DNA of 38,670 bases, from NCBI GenBank assembly GCA_937924755.1, contig CALEVZ010000007.1, positions 1 to 38,670 on the forward strand. Direction: 5' to 3'. The position numbers and the translations under genes were made by a program. Numbering within the stretch: the first letter of the stretch is position 1; every line of letters starts with the position of its first letter. Positions 3,222 through 37,647 of the stretch are shown here, one piece after another. The notes beneath the pieces are model-generated. The model had not been told where the DNA came from and did no database searches. It was given only the letters and a program-made list of their open reading frames with translations. This DNA comes from an uncultured bacterium (GTDB lineage Bacteria; Acidobacteriota; Thermoanaerobaculia; Thermoanaerobaculales; Thermoanaerobaculaceae).

Positions 3222-5277
3222 CCTCGCCATCGTCGTCGGTGAGGAAACCGGGCAGGGCGTAGCGGCCCTCCACCGGCAAGGCCGGCGAGGTCTGGGTTGC
3301 CTCCACCTGCCAGCGCTGGTACAGGTGCCCGGGCAGCTCCGAGAGGAAGCGGGAGGGCTCCAGGATGACGTCCACCCGGTAGCGGTCTCGGGCCGCGAAG
3401 GGGTAACACAGGAGTAACGTATCTTTGGCCCGGGTGCAGGCCACGTAGAAGAGTCGCCGCTCTTCCTCCACGTCTTCCGCCCGCGCGGAGGGGAATCGAC
3501 TCTCGGCCAGCCAGACGACGAAGACCACGCGCCACTCCAGCCCCTTGGCCTGGTGCACAGTGGAGAGGGTGACTTTCTGTTTCTCGCCCTCTACCGCTGC
3601 CACGTCCTCTCCCGAAAGCTCGTTCATCAGCGTGACCTCGTCGAGGAACGCCGACACCTCCTCGTACCCGTCAGCAAACAAGGCCAGCTGTTCGAGGTCG
3701 TCCAGGCGCGAGGCGGCGTTGTCCAGGGTGGCCCGCACGTACTCCCGATACCATGAGCCCACCACCTCGCGAACCATCTCGCCCGGACGGGTGCGCATCC
3801 GCTCCAGCCGGCCGACCAGCTGCGCCAGCTCGCCGGCGGAATGGGCCGCCCCTGCCGGCAAGCCCGTCCCGGCAGGGTCGAGGTTCAACATGGCGTAAAG
3901 CGCATCTCCGGAGGCCCGCAACCGCTCCCACAGCCTGGCCACCAGCCGCTGTCCCAGGCGCGGCCTCAGCCTGGCCATACGGGTGAAGGCCACCTCGTCG
4001 GCGGGGTTGGCCACGAAGCGCAGGTGGGCGAGTACGTCCTTGACATGCCGCTGCTCGAAAAAGCGCAACCCCGAACGCACCTCGTAGGGGATGTTGCGGC
4101 GCGCCAGCTCGACCTCGATCTCTAGGGAGTGGGAGTGGCTGCGGTAGAGCACAGCCAGCTCGGCCAGGGGGATATCCTCATCGATCAGTTCCAAAATATG
4201 AGAGGCCACGAAGGCAGCCTGGTCTTCTGGGGAGGGTGCAGCGCACACCACCGGCAGCTCGCCGCCCTCCCGCAGGGCCCGCAGATTCTTTGGGAACTGT
4301 CTCTTATTGTGGGAGATGGAGGCGTTGGCCAGGTCCAGGATGGGAGGCAGCGAGCGGTAGTTGGACTCCAGGCGGAAGGTGGCGCAGTCGGGGTAACGTT
4401 CGGGGAACGAGAGGATGTTGGCAAACTCGGCGCCGCGAAAGGCGTAGATGGACTGGGCGTCGTCCCCCACCACGACGAGGTTGCGCCGCTCGCCCACCAT
4501 GGTATCGACGATGTCCGCCTGCAGCCGGTTGGTGTCCTGGTACTCGTCCACCAAAATATGAGCGAAGCGGGCTTGCAGCGCCCGCCGCGTGTCGGCGTGA
4601 CGGCGCAACAGGAGCAGCCAGTTGAGCAAGAGGTCGTCGTAGTCCATGAGGTTAGCGGCTCGCTTGCGTTCCAGATAGCGGCGGAAGACTTCGGCGATGG
4701 TATCAGTATCGGAGGCGAACTGGGGGAAGCGGGCCGGCACTACCTCGGCTAGGCTGCGGCCGGTGTTGATGCACAGGGAGTACAGCTCCACCAGCTGCGC
4801 GGCCCCTGGAAGCCGCCGGGCGGGGGGGGTGGGGACCACGTCTGCCAGGGCGGCCCCCATCAGATCCCGGGCGTCCTCCCGATCGAGGATGCCGTAGTTG
4901 GGCCGGTAGCCGATCTGTTCGGCCCAGCGTCGCAGCAGGCGGTTGCCCACCGAGTGGAACGTCCCGCCCATCACTCGACTGGCGTCCTGGCCCAGAAGCT
5001 TTCCGACCCGCTCCAGCATTTCCCGGGCGGCGCGGTTGGTGAAGGTGAGCAGGAGCACCTCGGTGGGGCTGACACCATCCTCCAGGAGGCGGGCGACGCG
5101 GTAGACCAGAGTGCGAGTCTTGCCGGAGCCGGCGCCGGCGAGAACCAACATCGGTCCACCCGGGTGCATCACTGCCTCGAGCTGCTCCCGGTTCAACTGG
5201 CTGGCGTAGTCGATTCGGCGCCGGGCCCCGGGGGCGGCCCGCAGGGCAACGCGCCGGGCAGAGGGTGGATGTGGCAT
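3214..5277 (-). CDS. ATP-dependent 3'-5' DNA helicase, UvrD/PcrA/Rep superfamily 1
   Basis: 687 residues. Helicase motifs appear in order: Walker A GAGSGKT at residues 48-54, motif Ia (LLLTFTNRAA), motif II DEYQD around residue 243, motif III (VGDDAQSIYAFRGA), motif IV (ESNYRS), motif V (STVHQAKGLEW) and motif VI (RRLFYVACTRAKD). This is a complete SF1A helicase of normal length, expected to unwind DNA in repair or replication-fork restart. The choice between UvrD, PcrA and Rep cannot be made by eye. A -10-like TATCCT lies 7 bases before the ATG and no Shine-Dalgarno sequence is seen, so the mRNA may be leaderless. The extra N-terminal 20 residues are basic and not part of the motif core. Confidence 0.95.
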   Translation of the reverse strand: MPHPPSARRVALRAAPGARRRIDYASQLNREQLEAVMHPGGPMLVLAGAGSGKTRTLVYRVARLLEDGVSPTEVLLLTFTNRAAREMLERVGKLLGQDASRVMGGTFHSVGNRLLRRWAEQIGYRPNYGILDREDARDLMGAALADVVPTPPARRLPGAAQLVELYSLCINTGRSLAEVVPARFPQFASDTDTIAEVFRRYLERKRAANLMDYDDLLLNWLLLLRRHADTRRALQARFAHILVDEYQDTNRLQADIVDTMVGERRNLVVVGDDAQSIYAFRGAEFANILSFPERYPDCATFRLESNYRSLPPILDLANASISHNKRQFPKNLRALREGGELPVVCAAPSPEDQAAFVASHILELIDEDIPLAELAVLYRSHSHSLEIEVELARRNIPYEVRSGLRFFEQRHVKDVLAHLRFVANPADEVAFTRMARLRPRLGQRLVARLWERLRASGDALYAMLNLDPAGTGLPAGAAHSAGELAQLVGRLERMRTRPGEMVREVVGSWYREYVRATLDNAASRLDDLEQLALFADGYEEVSAFLDEVTLMNELSGEDVAAVEGEKQKVTLSTVHQAKGLEWRVVFVVWLAESRFPSARAEDVEEERRLFYVACTRAKDTLLLCYPFAARDRYRVDVILEPSRFLSELPGHLYQRWQVEATQTSPALPVEGRYALPGFLTDDDGEVN

Positions 5278-9280: not shown

Positions 9281-9443
9281 GCGGACGGGTCCCGCGGCGC
9301 GGCCCTCGGGATGACGGCGTCGCCGCCGTGCGGGTCGACATTCTGATGTCTCCCGCGGGCGTGGTTCACCACGACGGAGTGCAGGGAATCACCACGGCGG
9401 CGCTCTTTGGCGTGACCGCACGGGCAGGGGAGCTCGCCAGCCG

Positions 9444-9472
9444 TTGCATGTGCCGGCGCGCACGTGCACAAT
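9444..9472 (+). promoter_or_regulatory. sigma-70-type promoter for sucC-sucD-ndk
   Basis: TTGCAT at 9444-9449, a 17-base spacer and CACAAT at 9467-9472. The start would fall near 9479, directly before the leader hairpin at 9480-9495 and the GAGGAGGGG ribosome site at about 9505-9513. Confidence 0.5.
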
Positions 9473-9479
9473 GCCACCC

Positions 9480-9495
9480 GCCGCCTCGAGGCGGC
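9480..9495 (+). promoter_or_regulatory. 5' leader hairpin of sucC
   Basis: A perfect GCCGCC / GGCGGC stem with a TCGA loop lies at the predicted 5' end of the sucC transcript, about 10 bases ahead of the Shine-Dalgarno sequence. A hairpin at the extreme 5' end could protect the mRNA from decay. There is no T tract, so it is not a terminator. Confidence 0.4.
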
Positions 9496-9518
9496 GAATC
9501 TGCGAGGAGGGGTTGCCG

Positions 9519-10676
9519 ATGAAGGTCCACGAGTACCAGGCCAAGGAGATCCTGGCGCGTTTCGGCGTGGCCATCCCGCGGGGGCGGGTGATCACCCGGG
9601 CGGAGGAGGCGCGAGGGGCGGCCGAGGAGTACGGGGGCAAGGTGGTGGTGAAGGCGCAGGTGCACGCCGGCGGGCGGGGGAAGGCGGGGGGGGTGAAGCT
9701 GGCGAAAAGCCCCGAGGAGGCGGTGGAGGCGGCCTCGCAGATCCTCGGCATGACGCTGGTCTCCAAGCAGACCGGCCCGGAGGGGCGGCTGGTGCGCAAG
9801 GCGCTGGTGGAGGAGGCGCTGGACATCGACAGGGAATTCTACCTGGGGGTGGTGCTGGACCGCTCGGTGGGGCTGCCGGTGATGATGGCCTCCCGCTTCG
9901 GCGGCATGGAGATCGAGGAAGTGGCGGCGGAGCACCCTGACGCCATCTTGAAGGAGCACTTCGATCCGGTGACCGGGATGGCCGCCTTCCAGTGCCGCAA
10001 GCTGGGGTTCGCTCTCGGGCTGCAGGGCGAGACCTTCAAGCAGTTCACCCGCTTCGTGGCGGCTTTGGCGCGGGCTTACAACGACACCGACGCCTCGCTG
10101 GCTGAGATCAACCCTCTGCTCATCACCGCCAAGGGCGATGTGCTGGCCCTGGACGCCAAGATGAACTTCGACGACAACGCCCTCTCGCGTCACCCGGACA
10201 TCGCCGCCATGCGTGACCTGGATGAGGAAGACCCCTTCGAGGTGGAGGCCTCCAGGTACGACCTCAACTACATCAAGCTGGACGGCTCCATCGGCTGCAT
10301 GGTCAACGGCGCCGGGCTGGCCATGGCCACGATGGACATCATCAAGCTGCACGGCGGCAGCCCGGCCAACTTCCTGGATGTTGGCGGCGGAGCGAGTCAG
10401 GAGCGGGTGGAGCAGGCGTTCCGCATCCTGCTCTCGGACCCGGCGGTGAAGGGCGTGCTGATCAATATCTTCGGTGGCATCGTGCGGTGCGACATGCTGG
10501 CCGCCGGGGTGGTGGCGGCGGCCAAGAAAGTGGGGCTTGCAATCCCCCTGGTGGTGCGCCTGGAGGGGACCAACGTGGAGGAGGGCAAGCGCATTCTTGC
10601 GGAGTCGGGGCTGGCCCTTGAGAGTGCGGACACCATGGCGGACGCGGCGGCCAAGGTGGTGGCCGCGGCGCAGTGA
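9519..10676 (+). CDS. sucC: succinyl-CoA synthetase (ADP/GDP-forming) beta subunit
   Basis: 385 residues from ATG 9519, chosen because family members start [12 protein letters not shown] and a strong GAGGAGGGG site precedes it. ATP-grasp domain features are present: [20 protein letters not shown], the acidic metal-binding EINPL and [11 protein letters not shown]. The C-terminal CoA-ligase domain follows ([21 protein letters not shown]). With SucD it interconverts succinyl-CoA and succinate with substrate-level phosphorylation in the TCA cycle. Length is normal. sucD follows after 15 bases. Confidence 0.97.
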
Positions 10677-10691
10677 GGGAGGAGGCGAGGG

Positions 10692-11567
10692 ATGGCCATC
10701 TGGGTTGATACCAACACGCGCGTGGTGGTGCAGGGGTTGACTGGCAAGGAGGGACAGTTCCATGCCGCCCGCTGCCGGGAGTACGGGACCAAGGTCGTGG
10801 CCGGGGTGACTCCCGGCAAGGGTGGCCAGGAGGTGGACGGGGTGCCGGTGTTCAACACCGTGGCCCAGGCGCGCGCGGCGACCGCGTGCAACGCCTCGCT
10901 CATCTTCGTGCCGCCGCTGCTGGCGGCGGACGCCATCCTGGAGGCGGCGGACGCCGGGGTAGAGCTCATCGTCTGCATCACCGAGGGGATTCCGGCGCGA
11001 GATGAGGTGTTGGTAAAGCGCTCCCTGGCCGGCAAGCCCACCCGCCTCATCGGTCCCAACTGCCCCGGCATCATCTCGCCCGGCAAGGCCAAGCTGGGAA
11101 TCATGCCGGCGCACATCCACCGGGAGGGGACGGTGGGAGTGGTGTCGCGCTCGGGAACGTTGACCTACGAGGCGGTGGACCAGCTCACCAAGCTGGGGCT
11201 GGGGCAGTCCACCTGCATCGGTATCGGGGGGGATCCGGTGCCGGGCACCAACTTCGTGGACGTGCTGGCGGCGTTCAAGGATGACCCCCAAACCGAGGCG
11301 GTGGTGATGATTGGCGAGATTGGGGGGTCCGCCGAGGAAGAGGCGGCGGCCTGGGTGCAGGCGCACCTGGCCAAACCGGTGGTGGCCTTCATCGCCGGCC
11401 AGACGGCCCCCCCTGGGCGGCGCATGGGGCACGCCGGGGCGATCATTGCCGGCGGCAAGGGAACCGCCAAGGAAAAGATGGATGCACTCTCGGCGGCCGG
11501 CATCCACGTGGTGGCCTCGCCGGCGGACATCGGTCTCACCATGGCTCGAGTCTTGGGGAGGGCGTGA
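10692..11567 (+). CDS. sucD: succinyl-CoA synthetase alpha subunit
   Basis: 291 residues. The CoA-binding N-terminus ([14 protein letters not shown]) is followed by the ligase domain with [11 protein letters not shown] and [10 protein letters not shown]. The phosphorylated histidine is H247 in [17 protein letters not shown]. It forms the alpha-beta enzyme with SucC. Its own ribosome site (GGAGGCGAGGG) lies just upstream. Transcription probably continues into ndk, which starts 80 bases downstream. Confidence 0.97.
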
Positions 11568-11647
11568 GGGTGGTCGAACTTCGCCCTCCGCGGGGACGCT
11601 CGCCGCGCCCCGCTGTTTTCGGTGTGGTTTCTTCAGGGAGGAAGGCA

Positions 11648-12064
11648 ATGCGTGAAGTGACGTTGACGATCCTCAAGCCGGACACGGTGGCGCGCCGCCG
11701 GGTGGGGCAGATCATCGCCCGGCTAGAAGAGGAGGGGTTCGAGATCGTGGCGGCCCGCCGCATCAAGCTCAGCGAGGAGCAGGCGCGGGCCTTTTACGCC
11801 GTGCACAAGGAGAAACCTTTCTACACCTCTTTGGTAGCGTTCATGACCGAGGGGCCGGTGTGGGTCATGGCGCTGGCCCGGGACAACGCGGTCGAACACC
11901 TGCGCAAGGTGATGGGGGCCACCGATCCGGCCAAGGCGGAGCCCGGCACCATTCGCGCTCTACACGGTACCTCCATCGAGCGCAACGCCATCCACGGTTC
12001 GGATTCGCTGGAGAACGCCCGCATCGAGGTGGGTTTCTTCTTCTCCGCCGCCGATCTCGTCTAG
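11648..12064 (+). CDS. ndk: nucleoside diphosphate kinase
   Basis: 138 residues from ATG 11648 (site AGGGAGGAAGG); the frame is open upstream but homology begins at MREVTLTILKPD. The active-site histidine is H116 in NAIHGSDS, and KPD, KEKPFY and MGATDPAKAEPGTIR are the usual nucleotide-site motifs. It balances NTP pools. Placement after sucCD fits channelling of the GTP or ATP made by succinyl-CoA synthetase and is seen in several phyla. Confidence 0.97.
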   Translation: MREVTLTILKPDTVARRRVGQIIARLEEEGFEIVAARRIKLSEEQARAFYAVHKEKPFYTSLVAFMTEGPVWVMALARDNAVEHLRKVMGATDPAKAEPGTIRALHGTSIERNAIHGSDSLENARIEVGFFFSAADLV

Positions 12065-12224: not shown

Positions 12225-12253
12225 TTGACTGCTCGGCGGAAGGACGGTATGGT
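12225..12253 (+). promoter_or_regulatory. sigma-70-type promoter for the multiheme cytochrome
   Basis: TTGACT at 12225-12230, a 17-base spacer and TATGGT at 12248-12253. The start would be near 12260, about 49 bases before the ATG at 12309, which has a strong AGGGGGGGA site. Confidence 0.6.
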
Positions 12254-12308
12254 GGGAGTTGGTCAGGCGCGGACCGTGTGGATGAGGGCCTGGCCAGGGG
12301 GGGATCCC

Positions 12309-14291
12309 ATGAGACCTGACACGCTCTCACAGGTTCTTCGGTCGGCAGGATTCGTGCTGCTCGCCCTCTGGTGCGTCCTCGCCGCGCTGCCCGTCGCCGG
12401 GGCGAGCGACGAGGACTGCCTGATGTGCCACTCCCAGGCGGACATGTTCGAGGGCGCCGAGCAAGCGAAGCGGTACGTGGTGACCCACGAGAGCCTGCGC
12501 GGCTCGGTCCACGGTCCGCTGGACCTGTCGTGTACGGCCTGCCATGCGCCCATGGACTATCCGCACCCCGAGCAGCGTACGACCACCTGTTCACCGTGCC
12601 ATGAGGATGTGGAGAGGGTCTACGCCAAGAGCCTGCACGGCTACGCCCTGGCGCGGGGCAATCGGCGCGCCCCGACCTGTGCCAGCTGCCACGGCAACCA
12701 CGCCATCCTGCCATCCTCGAACCCCTCCTCGCCCACCCACAAGGTGCGTCTGCCCGGCACGTGCGCCTCCTGTCACGGGCAGGCGGGCCTGTTGACCGAC
12801 CAGCTGGTACGGCTGCCCCAGTCGTTCCAGGAGTACGCCCGTTCCGTGCACGGTCAGGGCACGACGCGGGGCGTGGCGGCGGCCGCGTCGTGTGCGGACT
12901 GCCACAGCGTGCACGACCTGAAAGGGGCGGCGGATCCCGCCTCCCCGATCAACCCCCTCAACGTCGCGAAAACGTGCGGCCAGTGCCACCCGGACATTCA
13001 GTTGGAGTACGACCGTTCGATCCACGGCCGGGCGCTGGCCGCCGGGATCCGCGACAGCCCTACCTGCACCGATTGCCACGGGGAGCACTTCATCCTCTCC
13101 GCCCGCGATCCCGACGCCCGCGTCTTCGGGGCCAGCCAGGCCACCGACACCTGCGGCCGGTGCCACGACGATCCCCTGATCATCGCCAAGTACGGTTTTC
13201 AGGAGGGGGTGGTGGGTTCGTACCTGGACAGCTACCACGGCTGGGCCAACCGGGCGGGGTACGGGCGGGCGGCGCGCTGCATCGATTGTCACACCGCCCA
13301 CGCCGTGCTGCCCAAGGCCGATCCGGAGTCGTCGATTTCCCCCGAACGAATCGTCTCCACCTGCGCCACCTGCCACCCGCGGGCGACCGCGAACTTTGCC
13401 GCTTCCTACGATCACCGGTCGGCCTCCATCGTGGCCAACCCGGTGAATCGGGCGATCCGCAGCATCTATCTTTGGCTCATCGCGCTCATCATCGGTGGCA
13501 TGGTGGTACACAATCTCTTCATTATCAATTACTTCATGATCAAGCGGCGCAAGGAACACACCGCCGCCGACAGCACGGTGACCCGCTTCACCATGAACGA
13601 GGTGGCGCAGCATCTGATCCTCACCGTAGCGTTCGTAGTGCTTGCGGTCACCGGCTTCGCGCTGCGCTATCCGGACACATTCTGGGTGCGGTTCCTCGCC
13701 GCCCTGGGGATGTCCGAGGGGGTGCGCGGCGACATCCACCGGGGCGCCGGCGTGGTGTTGATCTTGATCTCGTGCTATCACGCCTGGTACGTGCTGGCCA
13801 CTAAGCGGGGGCGGACCGAGTTCAAGGCTCTCCTGCCGAGCCGGAAAGATTTCACTGATCTGGTCGAGAACCTGCGGTACCACCTCTTCCGCTCGCAACG
13901 AAAGCCGCGCTTCGGGCGCTACGACTACTCCCAGAAGGCCGAGTACTGGGCACTGGTGTGGGGGACCATCCTCATGGCGGTCACCGGGCTGATCCTCTGG
14001 TTTCCGACGACGGCGGCGAAGTTTCTGCCCGCCCTGGCCATTCCCGCGGCGCAGACCGTGCACTACTACGAAGCTTGGCTCGCGACCCTGGCCATTTTGG
14101 TGTGGCACTTCTTCTTCGTCGTTTTCCACCCGGAGGAATACCCCATGAGCTGGACGTGGCTGACCGGCAAGATGAGCAGGAAGTCGGCCAAGGAGCACCA
14201 CGCCCTGTGGTACGAGGAGGAGCTGGCGGCCGCCGAGGAGACGGCGGCCGGCGAGGCTCGGGACCGCAGGACGGAGGATTCCGCCGGCTGA
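12309..14291 (+). CDS. 11-heme c-type cytochrome fused to a diheme b-type membrane domain (CbcL-like architecture)
   Basis: 660 residues from ATG 12309. A signal peptide or anchor (FVLLALWCVLAALPVAGA) leads the protein. Eleven CXXCH heme sites lie between residues 37 (CLMCH) and 356 (CATCH). From about residue 385 the protein becomes polytopic, with about five membrane segments. Histidines suited to b-heme ligation occur in VAQHLIL, DIHRGAG, CYHAWYV and VWHFFFV. This is the layout of an inner-membrane quinone:multiheme oxidoreductase such as Geobacter CbcL. The likely role is passing electrons between the quinone pool and periplasmic or extracellular acceptors. No terminal reductase gene is adjacent, so the partner is unknown. 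The C-terminus is a short acidic cytoplasmic tail. Confidence 0.88.
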   Translation: MRPDTLSQVLRSAGFVLLALWCVLAALPVAGASDEDCLMCHSQADMFEGAEQAKRYVVTHESLRGSVHGPLDLSCTACHAPMDYPHPEQRTTTCSPCHEDVERVYAKSLHGYALARGNRRAPTCASCHGNHAILPSSNPSSPTHKVRLPGTCASCHGQAGLLTDQLVRLPQSFQEYARSVHGQGTTRGVAAAASCADCHSVHDLKGAADPASPINPLNVAKTCGQCHPDIQLEYDRSIHGRALAAGIRDSPTCTDCHGEHFILSARDPDARVFGASQATDTCGRCHDDPLIIAKYGFQEGVVGSYLDSYHGWANRAGYGRAARCIDCHTAHAVLPKADPESSISPERIVSTCATCHPRATANFAASYDHRSASIVANPVNRAIRSIYLWLIALIIGGMVVHNLFIINYFMIKRRKEHTAADSTVTRFTMNEVAQHLILTVAFVVLAVTGFALRYPDTFWVRFLAALGMSEGVRGDIHRGAGVVLILISCYHAWYVLATKRGRTEFKALLPSRKDFTDLVENLRYHLFRSQRKPRFGRYDYSQKAEYWALVWGTILMAVTGLILWFPTTAAKFLPALAIPAAQTVHYYEAWLATLAILVWHFFFVVFHPEEYPMSWTWLTGKMSRKSAKEHHALWYEEELAAAEETAAGEARDRRTEDSAG

Positions 14292-22647: not shown

Positions 22648-23307
22648 TCAGAGGAGTCGCCCCGTGCCGAAAATGATCAGCGCGGCGCCCAGCAGGGTGA
22701 TGGCCATGCCCATGACCCTCACCACGGCCCGTTCACCGCGCGGGGAGAGCAACGCCCGGCCGCGGCGAAGAGCCCACAGCAGAGGGATGTACCAAGCGAT
22801 GACCCCGCCGATCAGGGCCGCCAGCATCCACGCCAGGCCCGGCGTGCCGTGGGCACGGGCCACCTCCACGAAAGCTAGCCCGGCGGTGACCCACCAGATC
22901 CAGTAGTGGGGGTTCGCGGCCGAGACCACTAGTCCCAAGGCGAAGTACCCCAGCGCCCGGTGCGGCTCTCGGTGCAGCCGGGGTCGCATGTGGTCGGCGG
23001 GAAAACGCCGTCTCAAGGAGGCCACTCCGCCCCACAGGAGCACCAGCCCGCCGATGATCTCGACCAGCGGCAGGGCGCCGATGCGGCGCAGGACGGGACC
23101 GGCCCCGGCCGCCAGAGAGGCGAACAGCGTCGCGTCCAGCACTGTGGTGCCCAGGAGAAACCAGGCCGCCGCGGCCAGGCGCCGGTCCAGAGCGAGGTGG
23201 GTGGCGACGATGGTGATGGGCCCGGGGATGGCCACCGTGGCCAGCGAGACAATGAACCCCACCGCCACCAGGGCGGGGAAGGGCAGCGGGAGGGTCAGGC
23301 CGTTCAC
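22648..23307 (-). CDS. LysE-family exporter
   Basis: 219 residues, GTG start. Six hydrophobic segments fit the LysE/RhtB fold, with the N-terminal signature IPGPITIVATHLAL and the central AANPHYWIWWVTAG characteristic of the family. It exports amino acids or similar small molecules; the substrate is not deducible. GTGA overlap with the upstream adenosine-specific kinase gene shows translational coupling. It is convergent with the HD-GYP gene, with 19 bases between stops. Confidence 0.88.
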   Translation of the reverse strand: MNGLTLPLPFPALVAVGFIVSLATVAIPGPITIVATHLALDRRLAAAAWFLLGTTVLDATLFASLAAGAGPVLRRIGALPLVEIIGGLVLLWGGVASLRRRFPADHMRPRLHREPHRALGYFALGLVVSAANPHYWIWWVTAGLAFVEVARAHGTPGLAWMLAALIGGVIAWYIPLLWALRRGRALLSPRGERAVVRVMGMAITLLGAALIIFGTGRLL

Positions 23308-23792
23308 GCCCCCAGCTTGTAGCCGATCCGCCGAAGGAAGGTGATGCGAGCCAGCTCCTCCGCCTCCGATTCCACCCCCTTGGGGGACACGCCATCCACG
23401 ACCCCGAGGATGGCGCGGCCCCCAGCACTCTCGATTAGCACCACCTGGGTGGGGTTGGCGGTGGCGCAGAAGATCCGGCAGACCTCGGGGACGTTCTTGA
23501 TGGTGTTCAAAATATTGATGGGGAACCCGCCTTCCATGAAGATGAAGAAGCTGTGGCCAGCACCCACCGCCAGAGCGTTGCGAGTGGCCAGCTCCACCAG
23601 GGCGGGGTCATTGCCGCTGCGCCGCACCAGAGCCGGCCCCGAGGCCTCACAGAAGGCGAGCCCGAACCTCATCTGGGGGGCGGTGGTGACGATCGCCTCG
23701 TGCAGGTCCTCGACGGTCTTGATGAAGTGCGACTGGCCGAGGATGAAGTTGGTGGTTTCGGGTTTTTCCACGGGCACGAACATCAGCTCCAT
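23304..23792 (-). CDS. adenosine-specific kinase family protein (PF04008)
   Basis: 162 residues with a good AAGGAGGT ribosome site. The sequence matches the compact adenosine-specific kinase (DUF355) family throughout: NFILGQSHFIKTVEDLHEA, GLAFCEASGPALVRRSGND and GHSFFIFM. The family is best known from archaea and thermophilic bacteria, where a member binds AMP/adenosine. The physiological role is not established. It is coupled to the LysE exporter by a four-base overlap and follows the degenerate peptidase gene by 36 bases, so the three form one likely operon. Confidence 0.9.
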   Translation of the reverse strand: MELMFVPVEKPETTNFILGQSHFIKTVEDLHEAIVTTAPQMRFGLAFCEASGPALVRRSGNDPALVELATRNALAVGAGHSFFIFMEGGFPINILNTIKNVPEVCRIFCATANPTQVVLIESAGGRAILGVVDGVSPKGVESEAEELARITFLRRIGYKLGA

Positions 23793-23828: not shown

Positions 23829-26018
23829 CTACGGGATCACGGGCCCGGCCAGGGCCACCGCCATCGAAGCCACGGCGCGGGCCAGCAGGACCATGAGCTC
23901 TGGTGAGGTGGTGGCCACATCCACCTCCGCCGGCAGATCGGTTTCTGGAGCCCCGGGAGGAGGGCTCCAGGTGCGGAGGGTGACCGCGGGCACGCCGCGA
24001 TGCTGGGCGACTGCGGCACCGCTGTGGGAGGCGGCATGACCTTCGCCCGGGCGCTGCGCCAGCCCCTGATCGCGCAAAGCGCGCAGGACGGCGGCAGTCA
24101 CCGTCGGCGGGTTCGCCTCCCCCTCCACCGTGACGGTGGTGTGGTGAGGGTAGGCCTCGGGGGTGCCGACCCCGTCCAGCTCGATCCAGGCGCTGACGCG
24201 CCCCTCTAGCTCGTCCAGCAGCGCCCGCGCCCCCGCTGCGCCGTGCGTGCCGCCGGCCAGCAAGGCCACCACCACCGGGGCGCGACGGCGGCTGCGGGCG
24301 ATGGCCCCGGCCGCCTCCAGAGCCACCGCCACCCCCGAGGCGTTGTCATGAGCACCCAGGGCGTGGAAATAGGCATCGTCGATGTGGGTGCGGGTGGCGT
24401 CCCAGTGGGCAGCCACCACCACTGGCCAGCGGCGAGGGTCGGCGCCGGGCAGCTCGATGAGGACGTTGGACCATTCCTGAGTGACCCGCGTGGGGGTGAC
24501 CCGCAGGAAGCTCTGGCGGCGAGCGGGGAGAGAGCGATCGGCCGCCTCGGCGAGGAGGAAGTCGGCGACCCGAACGGCGGCGGGCGCCCAGGCGTAGCGC
24601 GTGGTGAGGGAATCGCCGCGGGCGGTGGCCCGCTCTCCGGTGAGGCGACCCATGAGGGTGGCGAGGCTGGCGAGGGCGCTGGTGCCACCGTCGGGAAAGC
24701 GGGAGGAGAGCAGGCGCCTGAAGTCCTCGGTCATGGCCAGACGCGACAGGCGTGGAACCCAGCCGAACCCCCAGTGCAGGGCGACCTGCCGGCGGTCGAA
24801 GGTGGGCGAGGCGGCGGGCAGCGGCAGCACGGCGACCACCACTTCCTCCCCCGGGCGCAGCTCGGCGACGTCCAACTGCGCCTGCCCATCGGCGTCGAAG
24901 ACCAGCGGCAGTTCCACGTCGGGCCCACGCGGGCGCAGGAGGACCGCCCGGCCAACCCATCTCACCTCGGGCTGGCCCTGGAGGGTGAGAGGGTTGGATT
25001 TGTCGCTGCTGGGCCGCAGCTGCAAGTAGACGGGGAAACCCACCGAGACCGGGAGGTTACCGGCGGAGGCCCGGGAGGGATCCAAGAGGGCGTCCAGCTG
25101 ACGTGGGGGGTGAACGGTGCGGAAGGAAAACCTCCCATCCGTCAGGTGAGGGTCAGCGAGCCAGGCTGCCATGGCGGCGTCGGCGAGCATCGCCGCCGCG
25201 CTGCCGGCGACGCCGGTGGCCCGGCTCACCTCCTCCCACGCCGCCCAGCCCTCGGCGGGGCTGGTAGCCAGTGCGGCCAACCCGTCTTCCCCGCCGCGCT
25301 CGCGCAGGTAGTGCAGAGCCAGCAGCCATAGACCAGGGGGGCGATGCCCTGGTAGATCTTTTTGCCCCAGGCGAGGTTCTTCCCCCCACAGCAGACGCGG
25401 GCCCGTCAACCTGCAGTGGTAGGGCGCGTAAGCGGCGATGGCCCGCGCCCACGCCGTCTCGGCAGGGTCGCGGGCGTAAAGCAGCAGTTCGGCGTAGGCG
25501 ACGGCCAGCTCGGCGACGTTGTCCCGGCGGCGGTTACCGGCGAAGCCCAGGTCGGTGTAAAGGATTTCAGCCTCGTTGGAGTGGAAACCGTAGCGCCAAG
25601 CAACCTCGCCGGGCAACTGGTTGAAGCGCCAGAACTGCGTGGCTCCCCCGGCCATGCGGGTGATGAGGACAATGACGGCACCATTGCCGTCAACGTCCGG
25701 AGGCGGTCCGAACACGGCGGTGAGGCAGGGGTGAATGACGCTGTCGAAGGCCGCCACCAACTCATCGACGGCGAGGTTCTCCGAAGCGACCGCCGGGGTG
25801 AATCCTTCCTCCCGGTAGACGAGGAGGTGGGTTCCGCGGGCCAGCAGGTTCGCGCGCACCCGTACCTCCACAGGATGCCCGCCCGGGCCGGGATCGGGGC
25901 GCCAGAATTCCCGCTCCTGGAGGGCGGCAAGCGACGGGAGGGGGAGCAGCAGCAACACTCCCCCCATCAGCCGGGGTGCCAGGCGCGGGAGGAGGGTGAG
26001 ACGGCCTGACCAGGGCAT
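23829..26018 (-). CDS. secreted protein with degenerate M30-like and M28-like metallopeptidase domains
   Basis: 729 residues from the ATG at 26018; an upstream in-frame extension lacks any signal or homology. A signal peptide (LMGGVLLLLPLPSLA) leads the protein. Residues about 80-210 resemble the M30-type metallopeptidase region (FGPPPDVDGNGAVIVLIT, SNEAEILYTD), but where HExxH is expected there is YAELL. The C-terminal region (about 500-729) is M28-like: H538 and D540 (AHWDA), D558 (HDNASG) and a later Asp (ELDGVG) are kept. The paired catalytic and zinc-ligand glutamates of the GEExG motif are replaced by G590-T591. The middle third is beta-rich and unassigned. It is therefore likely a binding or scaffold protein rather than an active peptidase. 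First gene of the minus-strand operon with the adenosine-specific kinase and LysE. Confidence 0.72.
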   Translation of the reverse strand: MPWSGRLTLLPRLAPRLMGGVLLLLPLPSLAALQEREFWRPDPGPGGHPVEVRVRANLLARGTHLLVYREEGFTPAVASENLAVDELVAAFDSVIHPCLTAVFGPPPDVDGNGAVIVLITRMAGGATQFWRFNQLPGEVAWRYGFHSNEAEILYTDLGFAGNRRRDNVAELAVAYAELLLYARDPAETAWARAIAAYAPYHCRLTGPRLLWGEEPRLGQKDLPGHRPPGLWLLALHYLRERGGEDGLAALATSPAEGWAAWEEVSRATGVAGSAAAMLADAAMAAWLADPHLTDGRFSFRTVHPPRQLDALLDPSRASAGNLPVSVGFPVYLQLRPSSDKSNPLTLQGQPEVRWVGRAVLLRPRGPDVELPLVFDADGQAQLDVAELRPGEEVVVAVLPLPAASPTFDRRQVALHWGFGWVPRLSRLAMTEDFRRLLSSRFPDGGTSALASLATLMGRLTGERATARGDSLTTRYAWAPAAVRVADFLLAEAADRSLPARRQSFLRVTPTRVTQEWSNVLIELPGADPRRWPVVVAAHWDATRTHIDDAYFHALGAHDNASGVAVALEAAGAIARSRRRAPVVVALLAGGTHGAAGARALLDELEGRVSAWIELDGVGTPEAYPHHTTVTVEGEANPPTVTAAVLRALRDQGLAQRPGEGHAASHSGAAVAQHRGVPAVTLRTWSPPPGAPETDLPAEVDVATTSPELMVLLARAVASMAVALAGPVIP

Positions 26019-26063: not shown

Positions 26064-28109
26064 ATGAAGCTCCTCATGCTGGCCGTGGTGTGGTACGTGG
26101 CGGTGGCCGCTGCCGGGCTCGCCACCTGGGGAGCGCTGCGGCGCGTCGGCATCGGCGCCGGCGCCAGTTGGGCGGTGGCGCGCCCGGCGGGGTGGGTGGG
26201 AGCGGGCTTCCTCGCCTGGATGGCCGGGGTGGCCGGGTTGTCCCACTGGTGGTGGGTGGCGCTGGGGGTGTTGCCGGTGCTGGCGCTGCTGGGATGGCGC
26301 TCCTGGCGGGGGGTGGCACCTGGCAGCCTAGTGGACGTGGAGCTGGTGGGGGCAGCGGCCTTCCTGCTGCTGGCCTGGCTGCGGGTGCCGGTGATGGCCA
26401 TCCAGGGCACGGAGAAGCCCATGGACCTGGCCATTTTGGCCACTCTCATGCGCCCTGGCAGTTTCCCCCCCGGCGATCCCTGGCTGGCGGGGGAGGCCCT
26501 GCCGTACTACTACTGGGGATTCGTGCCCTGGGTGGCGCCCGCCAAGCTCCTGGGGCTGGCTCCGGACGTGCTCTATAACCTGCTCGTTCCCACCCTGGCC
26601 GCATTGACGTCGCAGCTGGCCTGGGCGGTGGCGCGCAGCCTGGGGGGCAGCCGCCGCAGCGCCGGGCTGGCGTCGTTCCTGGTGGTGTTCGCCGGTACGC
26701 CGGACGGTTGGCGCCAATGGTTGGGGGGGACCCCCCTGGTCGATCTCAACCTGTGGGAGTCGAGTCGGCAAATCCCCGGCACTATCACCGAGTTCCCCCT
26801 GTTTACCTTCCACCTGGGCGATCTTCACCCCCACCTGCTGGCCACTCCGCTGGTGCTGCTGGCCCTTTTCTTCGCGCGGAGCTGGGCGTGCACGGGTATG
26901 CGGCCGGCGCTGGCCATCCCCATGGTAGCAGTGGCGTTTGGAGCGGCGGCGGCGGCCAATCCGTGGTGTGCCCTGCCCACAGGGGTAGCGATTCTGCTGC
27001 TGGTGGTGGCGCGAGAGGAGGCGTTTTTGGATCCCCGTCGGCGGCAGGGGCTGCTGGTGTGGTTGCAGGTGGCCGCTGCCGGGGTGGCCGGGTGGGTGCT
27101 CTTCGCTCCCTTTTGGCTCAACTTTTCGCCTCCGACCTCGGGGCTCGGATGGGTTGGCCATGGCACCCGCTGGGACCATCTGCTGCTCTTTCTCGGTGCC
27201 GCGTTGCTGCCGCCCCTTCTGGTGGCCTGGGAGGTGGTGCGGCGTTGGGGGGGCTTTGCCGCCTCCCGGCGGCAGCTGGCCGTGGCCACCTGGGTGGCGG
27301 CCAGTACGGTGGTGGCCGCCTTGACGGGCAAGCCGGGGCTGGCCCTGGGGCTGGGGATCGCGACCGTGTTGCTGGCCGCCGCGGTGCCGGGACGACGGCG
27401 ACGGGGGCGGCCGGTGTGGGTGCTCACCGCGGTGGCGGTGACTCTGCTGGTGGCTATGGAGGTCATCTATTTCAAGGACCCCTATGGTGCCGAGTTCTTC
27501 CGCATGAACACGGTGTTCAAGGCCTCGCACCAGGCGTTCACCCTGTTGGCGGTGGCGGCGCCGGTCCTTCTGGGTTGGCTGCGCCGCCGCCGGCCAAGGC
27601 GGGCGATCGTGGCCGCAGCTTTGGTGGTGGCTGCCGGTCTGCCGCATCTGGCGGTGTTGGGGTGGCGCTCGGGTCCGAGTTTGCCTCCCGAGTGGAGCGG
27701 CCTCACCTGGATGGCCCCGGGGGAGCGAGAAGCGGCCCGCTGGCTCCACCGGCAGCCCCCCGGGGCGGCCCTGGTCGAGGCGGTGGGAGATGCCTACTCG
27801 GACGCGGCGCGCATGTCCGCCGCCTCGGGGGTGCCGGCGGCGCTGGGCTGGGAGAACCACCAGCTGGTGTGGCGGGGGGACTCTATCCGCCCCGAGATCG
27901 AACGGCGGAAGCTGCTGATCGCCAGCGTTTTCACCTCGGGCAACGCCACCGCCGTTGCTACCGCGGCCCGAGAGTTGGGCGCCCGCTTCATCGTCGTGGG
28001 CAGCAAGGAGCGGCAGGTCTACCCGCCCGGGGGGCTGGAGGCGGCCCGCCAGGCGGGGCGGGTGGCGTTTGCCGCGGGAGAGGTCGAAATCATCGAACTT
28101 CATGAATAA
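26064..28109 (+). CDS. DUF2298 / Chlor_Arch_YYY membrane protein, single-domain type
   Basis: 681 residues, almost entirely membrane segments. Signature motifs of the YYY family are visible: EKPMD (117-121), FPPGDPW (134-140), YYYWG (148-152), then IPGTITEFP with GDLHPH, and RMNTVFK about residue 480. A soluble C-terminal portion of about 140 residues follows (EREAARWLHRQPPGAALVEAVGD...). The family is described from archaea and Chloroflexi with no known function. It shares the multi-pass layout of GT-C glycosyltransferases, and the acidic residues of EKPMD, DPW and GDLH are plausible catalytic or metal-binding sites (inference). It overlaps the next gene by 8 bases and heads the five-gene operon. 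Confidence 0.85.
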   Translation: MKLLMLAVVWYVAVAAAGLATWGALRRVGIGAGASWAVARPAGWVGAGFLAWMAGVAGLSHWWWVALGVLPVLALLGWRSWRGVAPGSLVDVELVGAAAFLLLAWLRVPVMAIQGTEKPMDLAILATLMRPGSFPPGDPWLAGEALPYYYWGFVPWVAPAKLLGLAPDVLYNLLVPTLAALTSQLAWAVARSLGGSRRSAGLASFLVVFAGTPDGWRQWLGGTPLVDLNLWESSRQIPGTITEFPLFTFHLGDLHPHLLATPLVLLALFFARSWACTGMRPALAIPMVAVAFGAAAAANPWCALPTGVAILLLVVAREEAFLDPRRRQGLLVWLQVAAAGVAGWVLFAPFWLNFSPPTSGLGWVGHGTRWDHLLLFLGAALLPPLLVAWEVVRRWGGFAASRRQLAVATWVAASTVVAALTGKPGLALGLGIATVLLAAAVPGRRRRGRPVWVLTAVAVTLLVAMEVIYFKDPYGAEFFRMNTVFKASHQAFTLLAVAAPVLLGWLRRRRPRRAIVAAALVVAAGLPHLAVLGWRSGPSLPPEWSGLTWMAPGEREAARWLHRQPPGAALVEAVGDAYSDAARMSAASGVPAALGWENHQLVWRGDSIRPEIERRKLLIASVFTSGNATAVATAARELGARFIVVGSKERQVYPPGGLEAARQAGRVAFAAGEVEIIELHE

Positions 28110-31100
28110 CCAGAAGTGGCTGCTGCTTCTGGTGGTTTTATGGGGGGCGGCGCTGCGCCTGGGCGGGGTGGGGTGGGACGGCTACACCTACCAGCATCCC
28201 GACGAACGCTTCCTGCTCATGGAGGTGCTGAAACTCCAGGCCCCCACCTCGCTGGGCGAGGCCCTCGACCCCTGGCGGACCCCCGCCAACCCCAACAACC
28301 ACGGGACGGCGTTTTACGTCTACGGCACCCTGCCGCCCCAGCTCATCCGCGCCGTCACAACTCTCTTTGGCCTTGCCCAGCTGGACGAGCTTCTCCCCGC
28401 CGCCCGCCTACTGACCATCTTCATGGACCTGGTGGGAATGGTGCTGCTCGTGGCTCTGGCCAAACGGCTGGCCGGGCCGCGCGGGGCGCTCCTCGCCGGG
28501 GTGTTGTACGCCAGCGCGCCACTTTTGGTGCAGCAGGCCCGCTTCGCCACCGTGGACGTGTGGGGGACCACCCTGGTGCTGGCGGCGGCCTGGGAGGTGG
28601 TGGGGCGGCCGGTCACCCTCGGGAGAGTGGCGCGAGCGGGCCTCTGGGTGGGTCTGGCGGCGGCCTGCAAACCGAACCTGCTGCTAGCGTTGCTCGTTCC
28701 GATGGTGGCGCTGGGGGTGTCCGCCTGGCAACGACGGCAGACGTTGGGACGGACCGCGGCGTGGACGCTGGGGGCGGCGATGGCGCTGGGTGCTGCCGCC
28801 CTGCTCGCGGTCAAGGTAGCCGATCCCGGCCTGTTCGCCGGTGTTTTCTCGCTCCACCCCAACCCCCGCCGTCTGGCGGCACTGCAGCAGTTGGCCTACT
28901 TCTTCGCCGGCGGCGGGCAATACCCCCCCAACCTGCAGTGGGCCGACCGCCTGCCCGTGCTGGAGCCCCTCGCCAACCTGCTGATCTGGGGCACCGGGCC
29001 GCTGCTGGGGATGGCCGTGGTGATGGGCGTGGGAGGAATCGCGGCAAGGGCGGTGCTGGGTGAGGTTCGCTGGTGGCCGCTGCTGGCGTTGCTGCTGCCC
29101 GGGCTGGTCTGGCCGCTCACCCGTTTCGTCTGTTCGGTTCGCCACCTGGAGCCGGTGCTGCCGCTGGCGGTGCTGGGTGCCGGGTGGTGGCTGGCACGCC
29201 GGCGATCGTGGCTGCGCGCGGCGGTGGTGGGCGGCACCATGGTTTGGGGGTTGGGGTGGGCGTCCATTGGTTGGCGGGAGCACACCCGCCTGGAGGCCAG
29301 TCGGTGGCTGGAGGCCAACCTTCCCCCGGGGACCATCGTCACCAGCGAGTACTGGGATGACGCGCTGCCGGTGGGACGCAACCACGGGCTACTGCAGCTC
29401 ACCATGCGGGTGTTCGACCCCGATACCCCGCACAAAAGGGAAGCCATGTTGGCGGCACTGGAGCTGGCGGATGCGGTGGTGCTGGCGAGCCAGCGCGGGG
29501 TGGGATCCATTTGCAGGGTGCCGGACGCCTACCCCCTGACCTCGGAGTACTACCACCTGCTGTTCTCGGGGGCGCTGGGATTTCGCCAGGCGGCGTTCTT
29601 CACTCGCCGGCTGGGGCCGCTGGCGGATCTGAGAGCGGAAGAGAGCCTGTCGGTTTACGACCATCCGCCGGTGTGGGTGTTCACCAAAACCCCCGAGTAC
29701 TCCCCCGAGCTGGCGCGGGCGCTGCTGGAGCGGGTCAGCCTGCCCCCGTCGACGCGGTGGCACACCGGAGCGCTCCAGGCGCGGGGAATTCCTCCGTACC
29801 TGGAGCGGTGGCAGGAGCGGGGTGCGCTACCCCGCCGCCTGGGCGGCGCGAGGTGGGAGATGGCGGCGGCCGTGCTGCTCTGGGTGGCCGCCATCGAAGT
29901 GCTGGGCCTGCTCGCCGGAGGGGTGGTTCGACGTCTGGTTCCTGTTGCCCCGGATGGGGGTTGGGGCGTGGCGCGCTGGCTGGGTCTCACCCTCGCCGGT
30001 GTGGGGTGGCTGTGGTGCGGCTGGGCAAGTCTGCCCGGGTGGAACCGCTGGCTCCCGGGGCTGGTCTTGGTGCTGGCTTTTCCCTGGGCGGTGGCGGAGG
30101 CGCGCCGGGCGTCGCGGCAGCCCGCCTGGTGGATCAATACCGCGCTCGTGTGGGGGGTGTTCGCGCTCTTTTTAGGGCTTCGCCTGGCCAACCCGGAGAT
30201 TCACTGGGGCGAGAAACCCATGGATTCGGCTCTGCTGCACGGCATCCTGCGCAGCGAACGGTTTCCTCCCGTCGATCCTTGGTTTGCCGGTTCGCCTCTC
30301 AATTACTATTTCTTCGGCCTCTTGCCGCACGCCTTCCTCGCCCGCGCCCTGGGCATCGCACCGACGGTGGCCTATAACCTCATCGCCGCCACGGTGCCCG
30401 CCCTGACCGCAGGGGCGGCGGCCTCACTCGGCTGGCTGCTGGCCGGGCGCGCGGTCGGGGCCGTGCTGGCGGTGGTGGCCACCCAGCTTTCCGGCAGCGC
30501 CGCGGCGCTCTTCCGCTTTCGCGAGCTGGTCCTCGATCCCTCGTTCGCTGGCTTCTGGGCAGCCTCCCGGGTCATTCCGGATACCATCAACGAGTTTCCC
30601 GTCTGGACGGCGCTCTTCGGCGACCTTCACGCCCACTTTCTAGCTTTCCCCGGCTTCCTGGCAGCCATCTGGGCGGCGAGCCTGGTGGCCACCCGCCGCC
30701 TGCGCGGTCGGCGGGCCGCCGTGCTGGTGGGGGGGGTCTGTGGCATCCAGGCCATGAGTAACAGCTGGGAGATTCCAGGGCTCGCCGGGGTGGCGCTGCT
30801 GTCCTCATTGAGGCTTTCGGCGGGGGCGCTCGACCGACGTCTGGTCGACAGACTTCGCTTCCTCGTGGGCGCCCTGGCGGCGGCGACGCTGGTGACGCTG
30901 CCGTGGTGGCTCTCGGTGCTGCCCGCCGCGGGGGGGGTGAGCTGGACAACCGGCTCGAGGCTCCAACCGGCCCACCTGACTGAGCTGTTCGGGGTCGCTG
31001 GCGCCCTGGCGCTGGTGGCCGCCGCCGCCACGCTGATGTCGAGGCCGAAGGGGGGACACCCGCGCTGGGGGTGGATTCTGGTCGCCGGCGGGCTGGCGGC

Positions 31101-31770
31101 GCTGGCGGCGCCCGAGGTGGTGACGGTGGGGGATCGCATGAACACGGTGTTCAAGATCCACTTGCAGGCCCACCTGCTGCTGGGGGCGAGCCTCGGGGGC
31201 ATGGTGGGCGGCCTGCTCGGTGAGTTGCGAGGGTGGCGACGCGGTGTGGTGGCGTTGGGGGTGGCGCTGGCACTGGGGTGCGGTCTAATCACCACGTACG
31301 GGTGTGCGGCCTCGATGCTGGAACTGCGCCCCGTGGCGGGGCCCCGTCCCACCCTGGACGGGGGCGCCTACCTGGCCAGCACGGCGCCTGAGCGGCGAGA
31401 GGTACTTGCGGCGCTGGCAACGTTGCCGTACGGTGCCACCGTGTACGAACTGGCAGGGCCACCCTACCCCGAGTCGCTGCGGGTACCCATGTTCACCGGC
31501 TTGCCGGTGCCGGTCGGGTGGCGCTACCCCCTGTGGCAGCACCGGCACTCCTTCGCCGAGATCGATCTGCGCCTGCGGGATGGGGAGCAGCTGGCGGCCG
31601 GCGACAACCCGGCGCTGGTGCAGGCGCTGACCCGCAGGTATCGGGTGACCGCGGCGGTGGCCTGGGCGGGGGAGCGGCCGGCCCTGGTGGATCTGCCTGG
31701 GTGGCAGGAGTTGGCGCGGAGCGGGAGGGCCGCCGCGTGGCAGGCGTCCCTGCCGGGAGGGGAGCGATGA
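28102..31770 (+). CDS. GT39-like glycosyltransferase region fused to a second DUF2298 / YYY domain
   Basis: 1222 residues from ATG 28102. The N-terminal half (about 1-600) is a PMT/GT39-like GT-C module: an early periplasmic loop with HPDER (32-36), about ten membrane segments and a soluble tail (TSEYWDDALPVGRNHG...). From about residue 620 a second polytopic unit follows with the YYY motifs EKPMD (704-708), FPPVDPW, NYYFFG, IPDTINEFP, GDLHAH and RMNTVFK. So the protein joins the two families that are usually neighbours in one chain. It lacks recognisable TPR repeats, unlike other long YYY proteins. It overlaps the first YYY gene by 8 bases and the Agl23 gene by 4. Confidence 0.82.
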   Translation: MNNQKWLLLLVVLWGAALRLGGVGWDGYTYQHPDERFLLMEVLKLQAPTSLGEALDPWRTPANPNNHGTAFYVYGTLPPQLIRAVTTLFGLAQLDELLPAARLLTIFMDLVGMVLLVALAKRLAGPRGALLAGVLYASAPLLVQQARFATVDVWGTTLVLAAAWEVVGRPVTLGRVARAGLWVGLAAACKPNLLLALLVPMVALGVSAWQRRQTLGRTAAWTLGAAMALGAAALLAVKVADPGLFAGVFSLHPNPRRLAALQQLAYFFAGGGQYPPNLQWADRLPVLEPLANLLIWGTGPLLGMAVVMGVGGIAARAVLGEVRWWPLLALLLPGLVWPLTRFVCSVRHLEPVLPLAVLGAGWWLARRRSWLRAAVVGGTMVWGLGWASIGWREHTRLEASRWLEANLPPGTIVTSEYWDDALPVGRNHGLLQLTMRVFDPDTPHKREAMLAALELADAVVLASQRGVGSICRVPDAYPLTSEYYHLLFSGALGFRQAAFFTRRLGPLADLRAEESLSVYDHPPVWVFTKTPEYSPELARALLERVSLPPSTRWHTGALQARGIPPYLERWQERGALPRRLGGARWEMAAAVLLWVAAIEVLGLLAGGVVRRLVPVAPDGGWGVARWLGLTLAGVGWLWCGWASLPGWNRWLPGLVLVLAFPWAVAEARRASRQPAWWINTALVWGVFALFLGLRLANPEIHWGEKPMDSALLHGILRSERFPPVDPWFAGSPLNYYFFGLLPHAFLARALGIAPTVAYNLIAATVPALTAGAAASLGWLLAGRAVGAVLAVVATQLSGSAAALFRFRELVLDPSFAGFWAASRVIPDTINEFPVWTALFGDLHAHFLAFPGFLAAIWAASLVATRRLRGRRAAVLVGGVCGIQAMSNSWEIPGLAGVALLSSLRLSAGALDRRLVDRLRFLVGALAAATLVTLPWWLSVLPAAGGVSWTTGSRLQPAHLTELFGVAGALALVAAAATLMSRPKGGHPRWGWILVAGGLAALAAPEVVTVGDRMNTVFKIHLQAHLLLGASLGGMVGGLLGELRGWRRGVVALGVALALGCGLITTYGCAASMLELRPVAGPRPTLDGGAYLASTAPERREVLAALATLPYGATVYELAGPPYPESLRVPMFTGLPVPVGWRYPLWQHRHSFAEIDLRLRDGEQLAAGDNPALVQALTRRYRVTAAVAWAGERPALVDLPGWQELARSGRAAAWQASLPGGER

Positions 31771-36041: not shown

Positions 36042-36045
36042 TCTA
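36040..36045 (-). promoter_or_regulatory. -10 element for the XRE-S24 repressor
   Basis: TAGATT on the minus strand ends 9 bases before the ATG at 36030 and overlaps the stop codon of the upstream membrane protein gene. No Shine-Dalgarno sequence is seen. Candidate only. Confidence 0.35.
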
Positions 36046-37647
36046 GCGCGAGGAAGAAGGAAAGTCCAGCGATACTGGGTCGCCTGGGGTGGGCCGGTCC
36101 CGCACCCAAATCAGGTCCCGGCGGATATCGAAGGACCGCGGCGACGGGTGGAGCAGCAACACCGGCCGGTACAGCTCGGCCAGGGCGGGCGCCCGGGCCG
36201 CCTCGGCGCGGGCCGCCCGGTATGCCTCCTCGAGGTCCTCGCTCTGGGAAAGCGGGCGGCCCGGGACAACGACGGCGCACCCTTCGGCCACCGCCTCGGG
36301 CAACCCCCACAGGGTGTGCCCCGGGGTGACTCCCCCCTGTCGCTGCACCCGCGTGTTCAGGCCGTACAGGTCAAAGGTTGGCAGTCCGCTGGCGTAGGGA
36401 ACGGCTCCGGCGGGGCCCACCGCCAGACGGGTGCCAGCGGGCAGGTGGTCCTTCAGCCAGGCCCCGAGCGCCTCCCACCAGCGGCACTGCACCCGGTGGG
36501 TGGCCATGGCACGCCAGAGGTCCCCGGGCCGGGCTCTCCCTGGCTCTTCCCAGGGGGCCAGGCGCCAGGCCGCCGTGGCCACCAGCAGCGCTGCCGCGAC
36601 CACCTGCACCCGGGAGGACGACCAGCTCAGGGCCACCGCCAGCAGGACGAGCAGCGGCAGGAGGTAGCGGCTGGCGGGCATCCAGTCGCCCCCCCGCGCC
36701 ACCACCAGGACGGTCCACCCCAGCACGGGCAGGAGGACAGGGAGCGCCTCCCGGTGCCGTCGCCAGATGGCCGGCAGGGCCAGCAGCAGGGGCCACCACT
36801 CCAGCAGTCCCCGCAAAAAGTAGCGGATCCCCGCCTCTGGTCCCGCCGCGGCGGTGACGCCCTTGACCAGGGCGGCGTGGGGAACGGGGCTGCCGTAGTA
36901 GAGCAGGCGTGCGGCGGCCAAGGCGGCGATGACAGTGGCGGCGCCGGCCACGGCAGCGCGGGCCGCCCTGGGCAGTCCCCCCCAGAAGGGGACGGCTAGG
37001 GCAGTGAGAACCAGGCTTTCCGGCCGCACCCCCGCCCCCAGCGCGCCGCCGGCGGCGGCGAGTCCCGGGGTGCGGCGGGCCAGGCCTGCCGCCAGCAGCC
37101 ACAGGGCCATCCCCCAGGCGGCGGTTTCCAGGCCGCTGGCGGCGTAGAGCGCCGGCGTGGCCAGAGCGGCCCAGGCCACAGCCACGGGGGCGGCGGAGCC
37201 GGGGGCAAGACGGGCGGCGGCGGCCCCCGCCAGGAGCACCGCGACGGGGGCCAGGGCCAGGGACAGCAGGCGGCCGGCCACGCCCGGTTCCAGGCGGGCC
37301 AGCCGGCTGACCCCCGCAACGGCGGCGATCCAAACTCCTCCGGAGGCCCCCTCTAGTCGTTCACCGGGGTTGAACACGGGGCCGTGGCCGGCTGCCAGGT
37401 GGGCGGCGTAGCGAAACTGGATGTAGGCGTCGTCCACCAGGCCGTCGCCGGCGAGGGCGAGGGCGATGGCGGCGAGGGCGGCCACTGCCACGGCGTGGGT
37501 CTGCCTGCGGCGGGGGAGGAGGAGGGCCGCCACCAACAGCCCCGAGGCCGTTGCCCACCACGCCCAGTGGGGGACGAGGGGCGGCAGGAGGGTGGCCACG
37601 GGGGCATGACTCTCCACCCAGGCGGGTGGGATCATTACCTGTTCCAT
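36043..37647 (-). CDS. GT-C-type polytopic membrane glycosyltransferase candidate
   Basis: 534 residues. After one N-terminal membrane segment, the motif DDAYIQFRYAAHLAAGHG then FNPGERLEG is the first-loop signature of a GT-C family related to arabinofuranosyl- and mannosyltransferases; the acidic pair is D72-D73. About eleven more membrane segments follow, then a soluble C-terminal region from about residue 380. It is expected to use a polyprenyl-phosphate sugar donor on the outer membrane face. It lies 12 bases upstream of the repressor gene on the same strand. A TAGGGT hexamer 6 bases before the ATG is a weak leaderless promoter candidate. A second ATG lies 15 bases further in. Confidence 0.72.
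   Translation of the reverse strand: MEQVMIPPAWVESHAPVATLLPPLVPHWAWWATASGLLVAALLLPRRRQTHAVAVAALAAIALALAGDGLVDDAYIQFRYAAHLAAGHGPVFNPGERLEGASGGVWIAAVAGVSRLARLEPGVAGRLLSLALAPVAVLLAGAAAARLAPGSAAPVAVAWAALATPALYAASGLETAAWGMALWLLAAGLARRTPGLAAAGGALGAGVRPESLVLTALAVPFWGGLPRAARAAVAGAATVIAALAAARLLYYGSPVPHAALVKGVTAAAGPEAGIRYFLRGLLEWWPLLLALPAIWRRHREALPVLLPVLGWTVLVVARGGDWMPASRYLLPLLVLLAVALSWSSSRVQVVAAALLVATAAWRLAPWEEPGRARPGDLWRAMATHRVQCRWWEALGAWLKDHLPAGTRLAVGPAGAVPYASGLPTFDLYGLNTRVQRQGGVTPGHTLWGLPEAVAEGCAVVVPGRPLSQSEDLEEAYRAARAEAARAPALAELYRPVLLLHPSPRSFDIRRDLIWVRDRPTPGDPVSLDFPSSSR

Follow-up and report, generated by a model that had tools for sequence, protein, structure and literature searches.

Does a gene that exceeds the Pfam cut-off for Peptidase_M28, and is thus countable as a peptidase, encode an active one? 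The question is raised by one open reading frame in the window, the whole stretch of Thermoanaerobaculaceae DNA analysed here (38,670 nucleotides), whose product is unlikely to be a peptidase. The initial annotation described a secreted protein with two metallopeptidase-like domains, both apparently lacking catalytic residues, and proposed that two independent losses reflect selection for a non-enzymatic role. The features of the locus are as follows.

23829-26018, minus strand: whole gene, one open reading frame for a fused pseudo-M30/pseudo-M28 protein of 729 amino acids
25926-26018, minus strand: N-terminal hydrophobic signal-like segment, residues 1-31 (from the sequence; pLDDT <50; orthologue N-termini are hydrophobic too)
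25119-25925, minus strand: M30-like core, residues 32-300, catalytic residues all lost (profile match to and superposition on lugdulysin, 7bb8)
24699-25118, minus strand: beta-rich middle part and linker, residues 301-440 (DSSP; the lugdulysin match runs to residue 360)
23832-24698, minus strand: M28-like domain, residues 441-729 (Pfam and structural superposition)
25680-25697, minus strand: DVDGNG, residues 108-113 (aligns with lugdulysin DVDNNG; missing from the g4 orthologues)
25557-25580, minus strand: SNEAEILY, residues 147-154 (aligns with lugdulysin SNHSEIFY)
25488-25502, minus strand: V173-A-Y-A-E177, the HExxH column (HELEH in the intact relative L084, by alignment to it)
24399-24407, minus strand: H538-W539-D540, HxD motif (invariant in 16/16 members)
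24345-24347, minus strand: D558, bridging-ligand position (Asp in 15 members, Glu in 1)
24246-24251, minus strand: G590-T591 at the catalytic/ligand Glu-Glu position (family alignment and comparison M28 loci)
24174-24182, minus strand: E613-L-D615, with E613 a family-specific invariant and D615 the Zn2 ligand position (Asp/Glu)
24024-24026, minus strand: H665, family-specific invariant His in the loop preceding RGxP
23304-23792, minus strand: adenosine-specific kinase (PF04008), next gene downstream (10/10 examined loci)
22648-23307, minus strand: LysE-type translocator, third gene in the conserved order

The computed folds, losses, family-wide conservation and purifying selection are best explained by a non-hydrolytic, exported double pseudopeptidase that binds via a rebuilt M28 pocket and whose M30 half is structural, a reading that we consider probable. 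The signal-like N-terminus indicates that the 729-residue protein is probably exported, and it would be located outside the cytoplasm, either secreted or periplasmic. One bacterial protein would then combine two unrelated peptidase folds, both catalytically dead, and yet be preserved as a trait specific to the family. The best-known dead metallopeptidases are eukaryotic (the transferrin receptor, dead ADAMs and carboxypeptidases). The novelty is that two dead peptidase folds are fused and that one metal site has been lost selectively. A literature search, with most subscription journals outside its coverage, found no paper on the window protein, and a 2024 review of inactive metallopeptidases mentions neither M28 nor M30 (PMC11266112).

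Folds of the two halves

The C-terminal half is a member of M28 as a homologous family, by both profile and fold. An HMM alignment to PF04389 (Peptidase_M28), proposed as a check in the initial annotation, covers residues 518-681 with E=1.1e-14 and 55 bits, above the curated cut-off of 21.3; a weak M20 match overlaps it. We built an AlphaFold2 model of the window protein with the orthologue alignment as input (mean pLDDT 80.9). Residues 439-728 of this model superpose on M28 enzymes (6zeq, Z 26.6; 1amp, Z 25.2), and the fold is common to the M28/PF04389 aminopeptidases (Vibrio/Aeromonas AAP 1amp, LapA 6ica and BSAP 6hc6, Z about 25-26). The modelled M28 half also superposes on the transferrin receptor (3kas, Z 25.1) and on type II glutaminyl cyclases (Z about 24-25). 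Transferrin receptor 1 is a known non-enzymatic M28 homologue; unlike the window protein, it is a eukaryotic receptor with other inserted domains and no M30-like domain.

The first 500 residues have no Pfam match, PF10460 is not among the Pfam matches of the whole protein at E up to 1, and only weak partial matches were found in PHROGs and NCBIfam. A PF10460 profile search of the phylum gave no matches, but control genomes were equally without matches, which makes the result uninformative. A 15-member orthologue profile compared with solved structures matches lugdulysin in its N-terminal part (E=3e-7), and the match recurs when the N-terminal half alone is searched. In the model, residues 31-360 superpose on lugdulysin (PDB 7bb8, M30) with a Z of 23.7 over 289 residues (rmsd 3.5). 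DVDGNG and SNEAEILY, both pointed out in the initial annotation, are present at residues 108-113 and 147-154, and both align with lugdulysin segments (DVDxNG and SNxxEIxY in common). This half therefore has the M30 fold of lugdulysin and hyicolysin. In contrast to lugdulysin, it is without HExxH and the third ligand, is fused to an M28-like domain and has no PF10460 match. The two metallopeptidase-like domains first proposed are thus borne out by Pfam PF04389, the lugdulysin profile match and the superpositions of both halves.

A remodelled M28 site

We describe the M28 site by the numbering of the Vibrio/Aeromonas aminopeptidase, in which we take Zn1 to be bound by D117, E152 and H256, Zn2 by H97, D117 and D179, and E151 to be the base. 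The HxD and HDN motifs noted at the outset are present (H538-W-D540 and H557-D558-N559), and H538, D540, D558 (Glu in one member) and D615 (Asp or Glu, with Glu in several members) are retained across the family. The window protein thus keeps the HxD, bridging Asp and Zn2 Asp positions of M28 aminopeptidases. None of the 16 family members has the Glu-Glu pair; its place is taken by Gly plus one of Tyr, Phe, Thr, His and Cys, which confirms the reading of G590-T591 in the window protein. In a profile alignment, 19/19 other M28 loci of the class retain the pair, a few of them being overlapping fetches of one gene; the 19 loci were chosen without any pattern requiring Glu-Glu, avoiding circularity. 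A further loss was overlooked in the initial annotation: 16/16 members also lack the C-terminal Zn1 ligand His (YHxPxD), and no His is conserved in the region.

By alignment, the M28 half has lost the putative general base and two Zn1-only ligands, the base Glu and Zn1 ligand Glu as well as the C-terminal Zn1 ligand His that an active M28 peptidase carries. The predicted Zn2 set of His, bridging Asp and Asp/Glu (H538, D558, D/E615, with D615 in the window protein) is intact. The M28 half thus represents a natural loss of one metal site with the other kept, and offers a direct test of a lone Zn2 half-site. In two M28 relatives with an intact Glu-Glu pair (L047 and L054), the Zn2 Asp is replaced by Glu (NLEAR), so that a site complete in other respects tolerates either Asp or Glu in this column.

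The protein has an M28 fold with replaced catalytic residues, and the replacement is conserved among orthologues. This places it with the non-peptidase M28 homologues, an established kind with more than 550 members in MEROPS by 2014, few of them characterised (PMC4000134). One of these, CA_C2195 of Clostridium acetobutylicum (DUF4910), is likewise a bacterial M28-like protein with missing peptidase residues and one modelled zinc (PMC4000134). It differs in that the catalytic Asp and Glu are replaced by Ser and Pro, zinc is bound by two His and one Asp, and it has extra DUF2172 and wHTH domains and no M30-like domain (PMC4000134).

W539, E613 and H665 are invariant in the 16-member family and were not seen in the comparison M28 sequences. 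We scored conservation by weighted Jensen-Shannon scores and compared stretches with their circular shifts. Conservation is higher in the M28 metal-site loops than in the remaining M28 domain, at a value reached by 0.4% of the shifts; the loops were defined by the known M28 site and the H665 stretch was included once H665 was known to be invariant, making this test descriptive and not an independent proof. The M28 half would therefore combine the M28 fold and the Zn2 ligand set with a rebuilt conserved pocket (W539, G589-G590, H592/Q, E613 and H665). This pocket, with or without one metal, most likely binds a ligand without hydrolysing it. The ligand could be a partner protein, an amino-acid-like group or the N-terminus of a peptide, and the protein may bind peptides or the envelope, as the initial annotation had suggested.

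The strongest rival is a repurposed M28 enzyme, in which one metal at H538, D558 and D/E615, and E613 and/or H665 as new acid/base residues, would carry out a non-aminopeptidase reaction. The polar conserved pocket (H538, D540, D558, E613, D615 and H665) fits such a changed enzymatic site as well, given the selective retention of the Zn2 ligands, the invariance of D540, E613 and H665 and the unusual conservation of the pocket loops. One-zinc M28 homologues with other chemistry are known, namely the glutaminyl cyclases (PMC7948796), and GPAA1 has been modelled as a one-zinc member, the favoured model having the site-1 His missing (PMC7522609). However, the known one-zinc members hold Zn1-site ligands instead, which in glutaminyl cyclase are Asp159, Glu202 and His330 (PMC7948796). 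Type II glutaminyl cyclases share the M28 fold and keep the Zn1 site (Asp, Glu or Asp, and the C-terminal His) together with the Glu base, whereas the window family, having lost the Glu-Glu pair and the C-terminal His, keeps the opposite set. The base Glu is missing in all 16 members, and two of the would-be ligands vary, D558 being Glu in one member and D615 Glu in several. We regard a repurposed enzyme as unlikely. A one-metal site of a kind new to the M28 superfamily, formed by the Zn2 ligands alone with E613/H665 on a dead M30 scaffold and serving new chemistry or metal-dependent recognition, is doubtful as well.

Distribution and gene neighbourhood

Among the 99 relatives searched, orthologues were detected in 15 of the 16 other Thermoanaerobaculaceae genomes (31-48% identity); in genomes of the sister family and elsewhere in the class, only the M28 domain is matched. 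The family sample therefore comprises 16 sequences (the window protein and 15 orthologues) from one bacterial family, with an effective number of about 8. A single-sequence search of public genome contigs found no relative of the window protein; an alignment search of the same contigs found five family members and one Bacteroidales M28 match. Within its own genome the protein has one full-length match and one partial match, the latter to an ordinary, intact M28-PDZ paralogue (L002).

This paralogue raises the possibility that the window protein, as a pseudopeptidase, serves as regulator or escort of an active peptidase in its own cell, with L002 as an example of such a partner. Pseudopeptidases are known to control active cousins (PMC11266112), but the conserved gene order contains no peptidase gene, and we consider this role improbable next to ligand binding by the rebuilt M28 pocket. 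In 10/10 examined loci, the pseudopeptidase gene is followed by the adenosine-specific kinase and the LysE translocator genes, and it is flanked by opposite-strand glycosyltransferase genes in 8/10. The kinase and the translocator offer no direct hint of a ligand.

The adenosine-specific kinase (PF04008) was not found at E<=1e-20 in seven genomes free of the pseudopeptidase, namely G001 and six from the sister family, in a search run without a positive control. Elsewhere in the window, at positions 26064-31770, two genes for DUF2298 membrane proteins stand in tandem, ahead of PMT and GT2 genes; the second of the pair seems to carry a fused PMT_2 glycosyltransferase domain. One frame at 12225-14291 combines multihaem cytochrome c motifs with a cytochrome b561-type membrane domain. 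Two long minus-strand frames (9366-11648 and 36043-37647; 760 and 534 amino acids) have no Pfam match at 1e-5 and represent putative genes only.

The former M30 site and selection on the gene

The register of the HExxH motif is ambiguous from the family alone and was set by an intact relative, L084. This locus (genome G314, from another lineage of the phylum) is the sole other relative of the M30 half in 396 phylum genomes (E=2.4e-11). In the reverse search of 395 genomes, L084 matches, apart from itself, only one orthologue of the window protein (E=1.5e-10), making the two closest relatives within the phylum in both directions. The M30-like region of L084 is intact (LAHELEHLLQWRLDPGEQTWVNEG, i.e. 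HELEH...NEG), and LAHELEHLLQWRLDPGEQTWVNEG aligns gap-free, from LA to W, with LAVAYAELLLYARDPAETAW of the window protein. In this ungapped register, the HExxH column is V173-AYA-E177 and the third ligand position is A193. Unlike the window protein, L084 keeps HELEH...NEG and has a MAM domain and no M28 domain. Positions 2-1627 of L084, in a distant genome of the phylum, encode this M30-like peptidase, which is intact and whose MAM domain is InhA-like.

Judged against L084, HExxH and the third Glu are lost in all 15 family members that have the M30 region, and the window protein has V173-AYA-E177 and A193 in place of HELEH and NEG. The loss of the motif put forward in the initial annotation thus stands, but its register does not: YAELL (residues 175-179) was rejected as the HExxH column, which lies two residues earlier. 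The losses are shared by orthologues in both halves, in 16/16 members for M28 and, for M30, in 15/15 of those that have the region. Evidence that would overturn the loss, according to the initial annotation, was an orthologue in which HExxH is intact. L004 (genome G002; frame 1495-3636, minus strand) only seems to qualify; it reads FHELLH, an exact HExxH string that is displaced, with the third ligand missing. We rejected its HELLH as a marker of the HExxH column, as it lies three residues C-terminal to the column set by L084.

With this motif in L004, and FHxLLH in the g5-genus members with an M30 region (HxxxH), the M30 half might still be a zinc peptidase in some members via a shifted motif. 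The motif lies three residues past the ancestral column, however, the conserved third Glu ligand is missing, the Glu of HExxH occurs in one member only, and the window protein is without either His; we find such activity very hard to credit. In our preferred reading, the M30 half (residues about 31-400), its zinc site wholly lost, would act as a structural module. The former M30 helix shows no excess conservation (value reached by 70% of circular shifts).

Judged from the family alignments, both losses are fixed in every member and would hence have arisen on or before the family stem branch. Their order or linkage is unreadable for the same reason. The initial proposal of two independent losses as a selected non-enzymatic state thus holds for the shared losses and for purifying selection; independence of the losses is unproven, as both lie on or before the stem. 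Nei-Gojobori dN/dS is 0.09-0.38 in every domain across seven orthologue pairs, a rough estimate for G+C-rich DNA with some pairs near saturation, and argues for a gene that is maintained and not decaying. Decay of a former peptidase toward a pseudogene, for which the missing catalytic residues and the poorly conserved former M30 site might speak, is contradicted by these values and by a reading frame that stays open and a gene order that is conserved across genera, and is the least credible reading.
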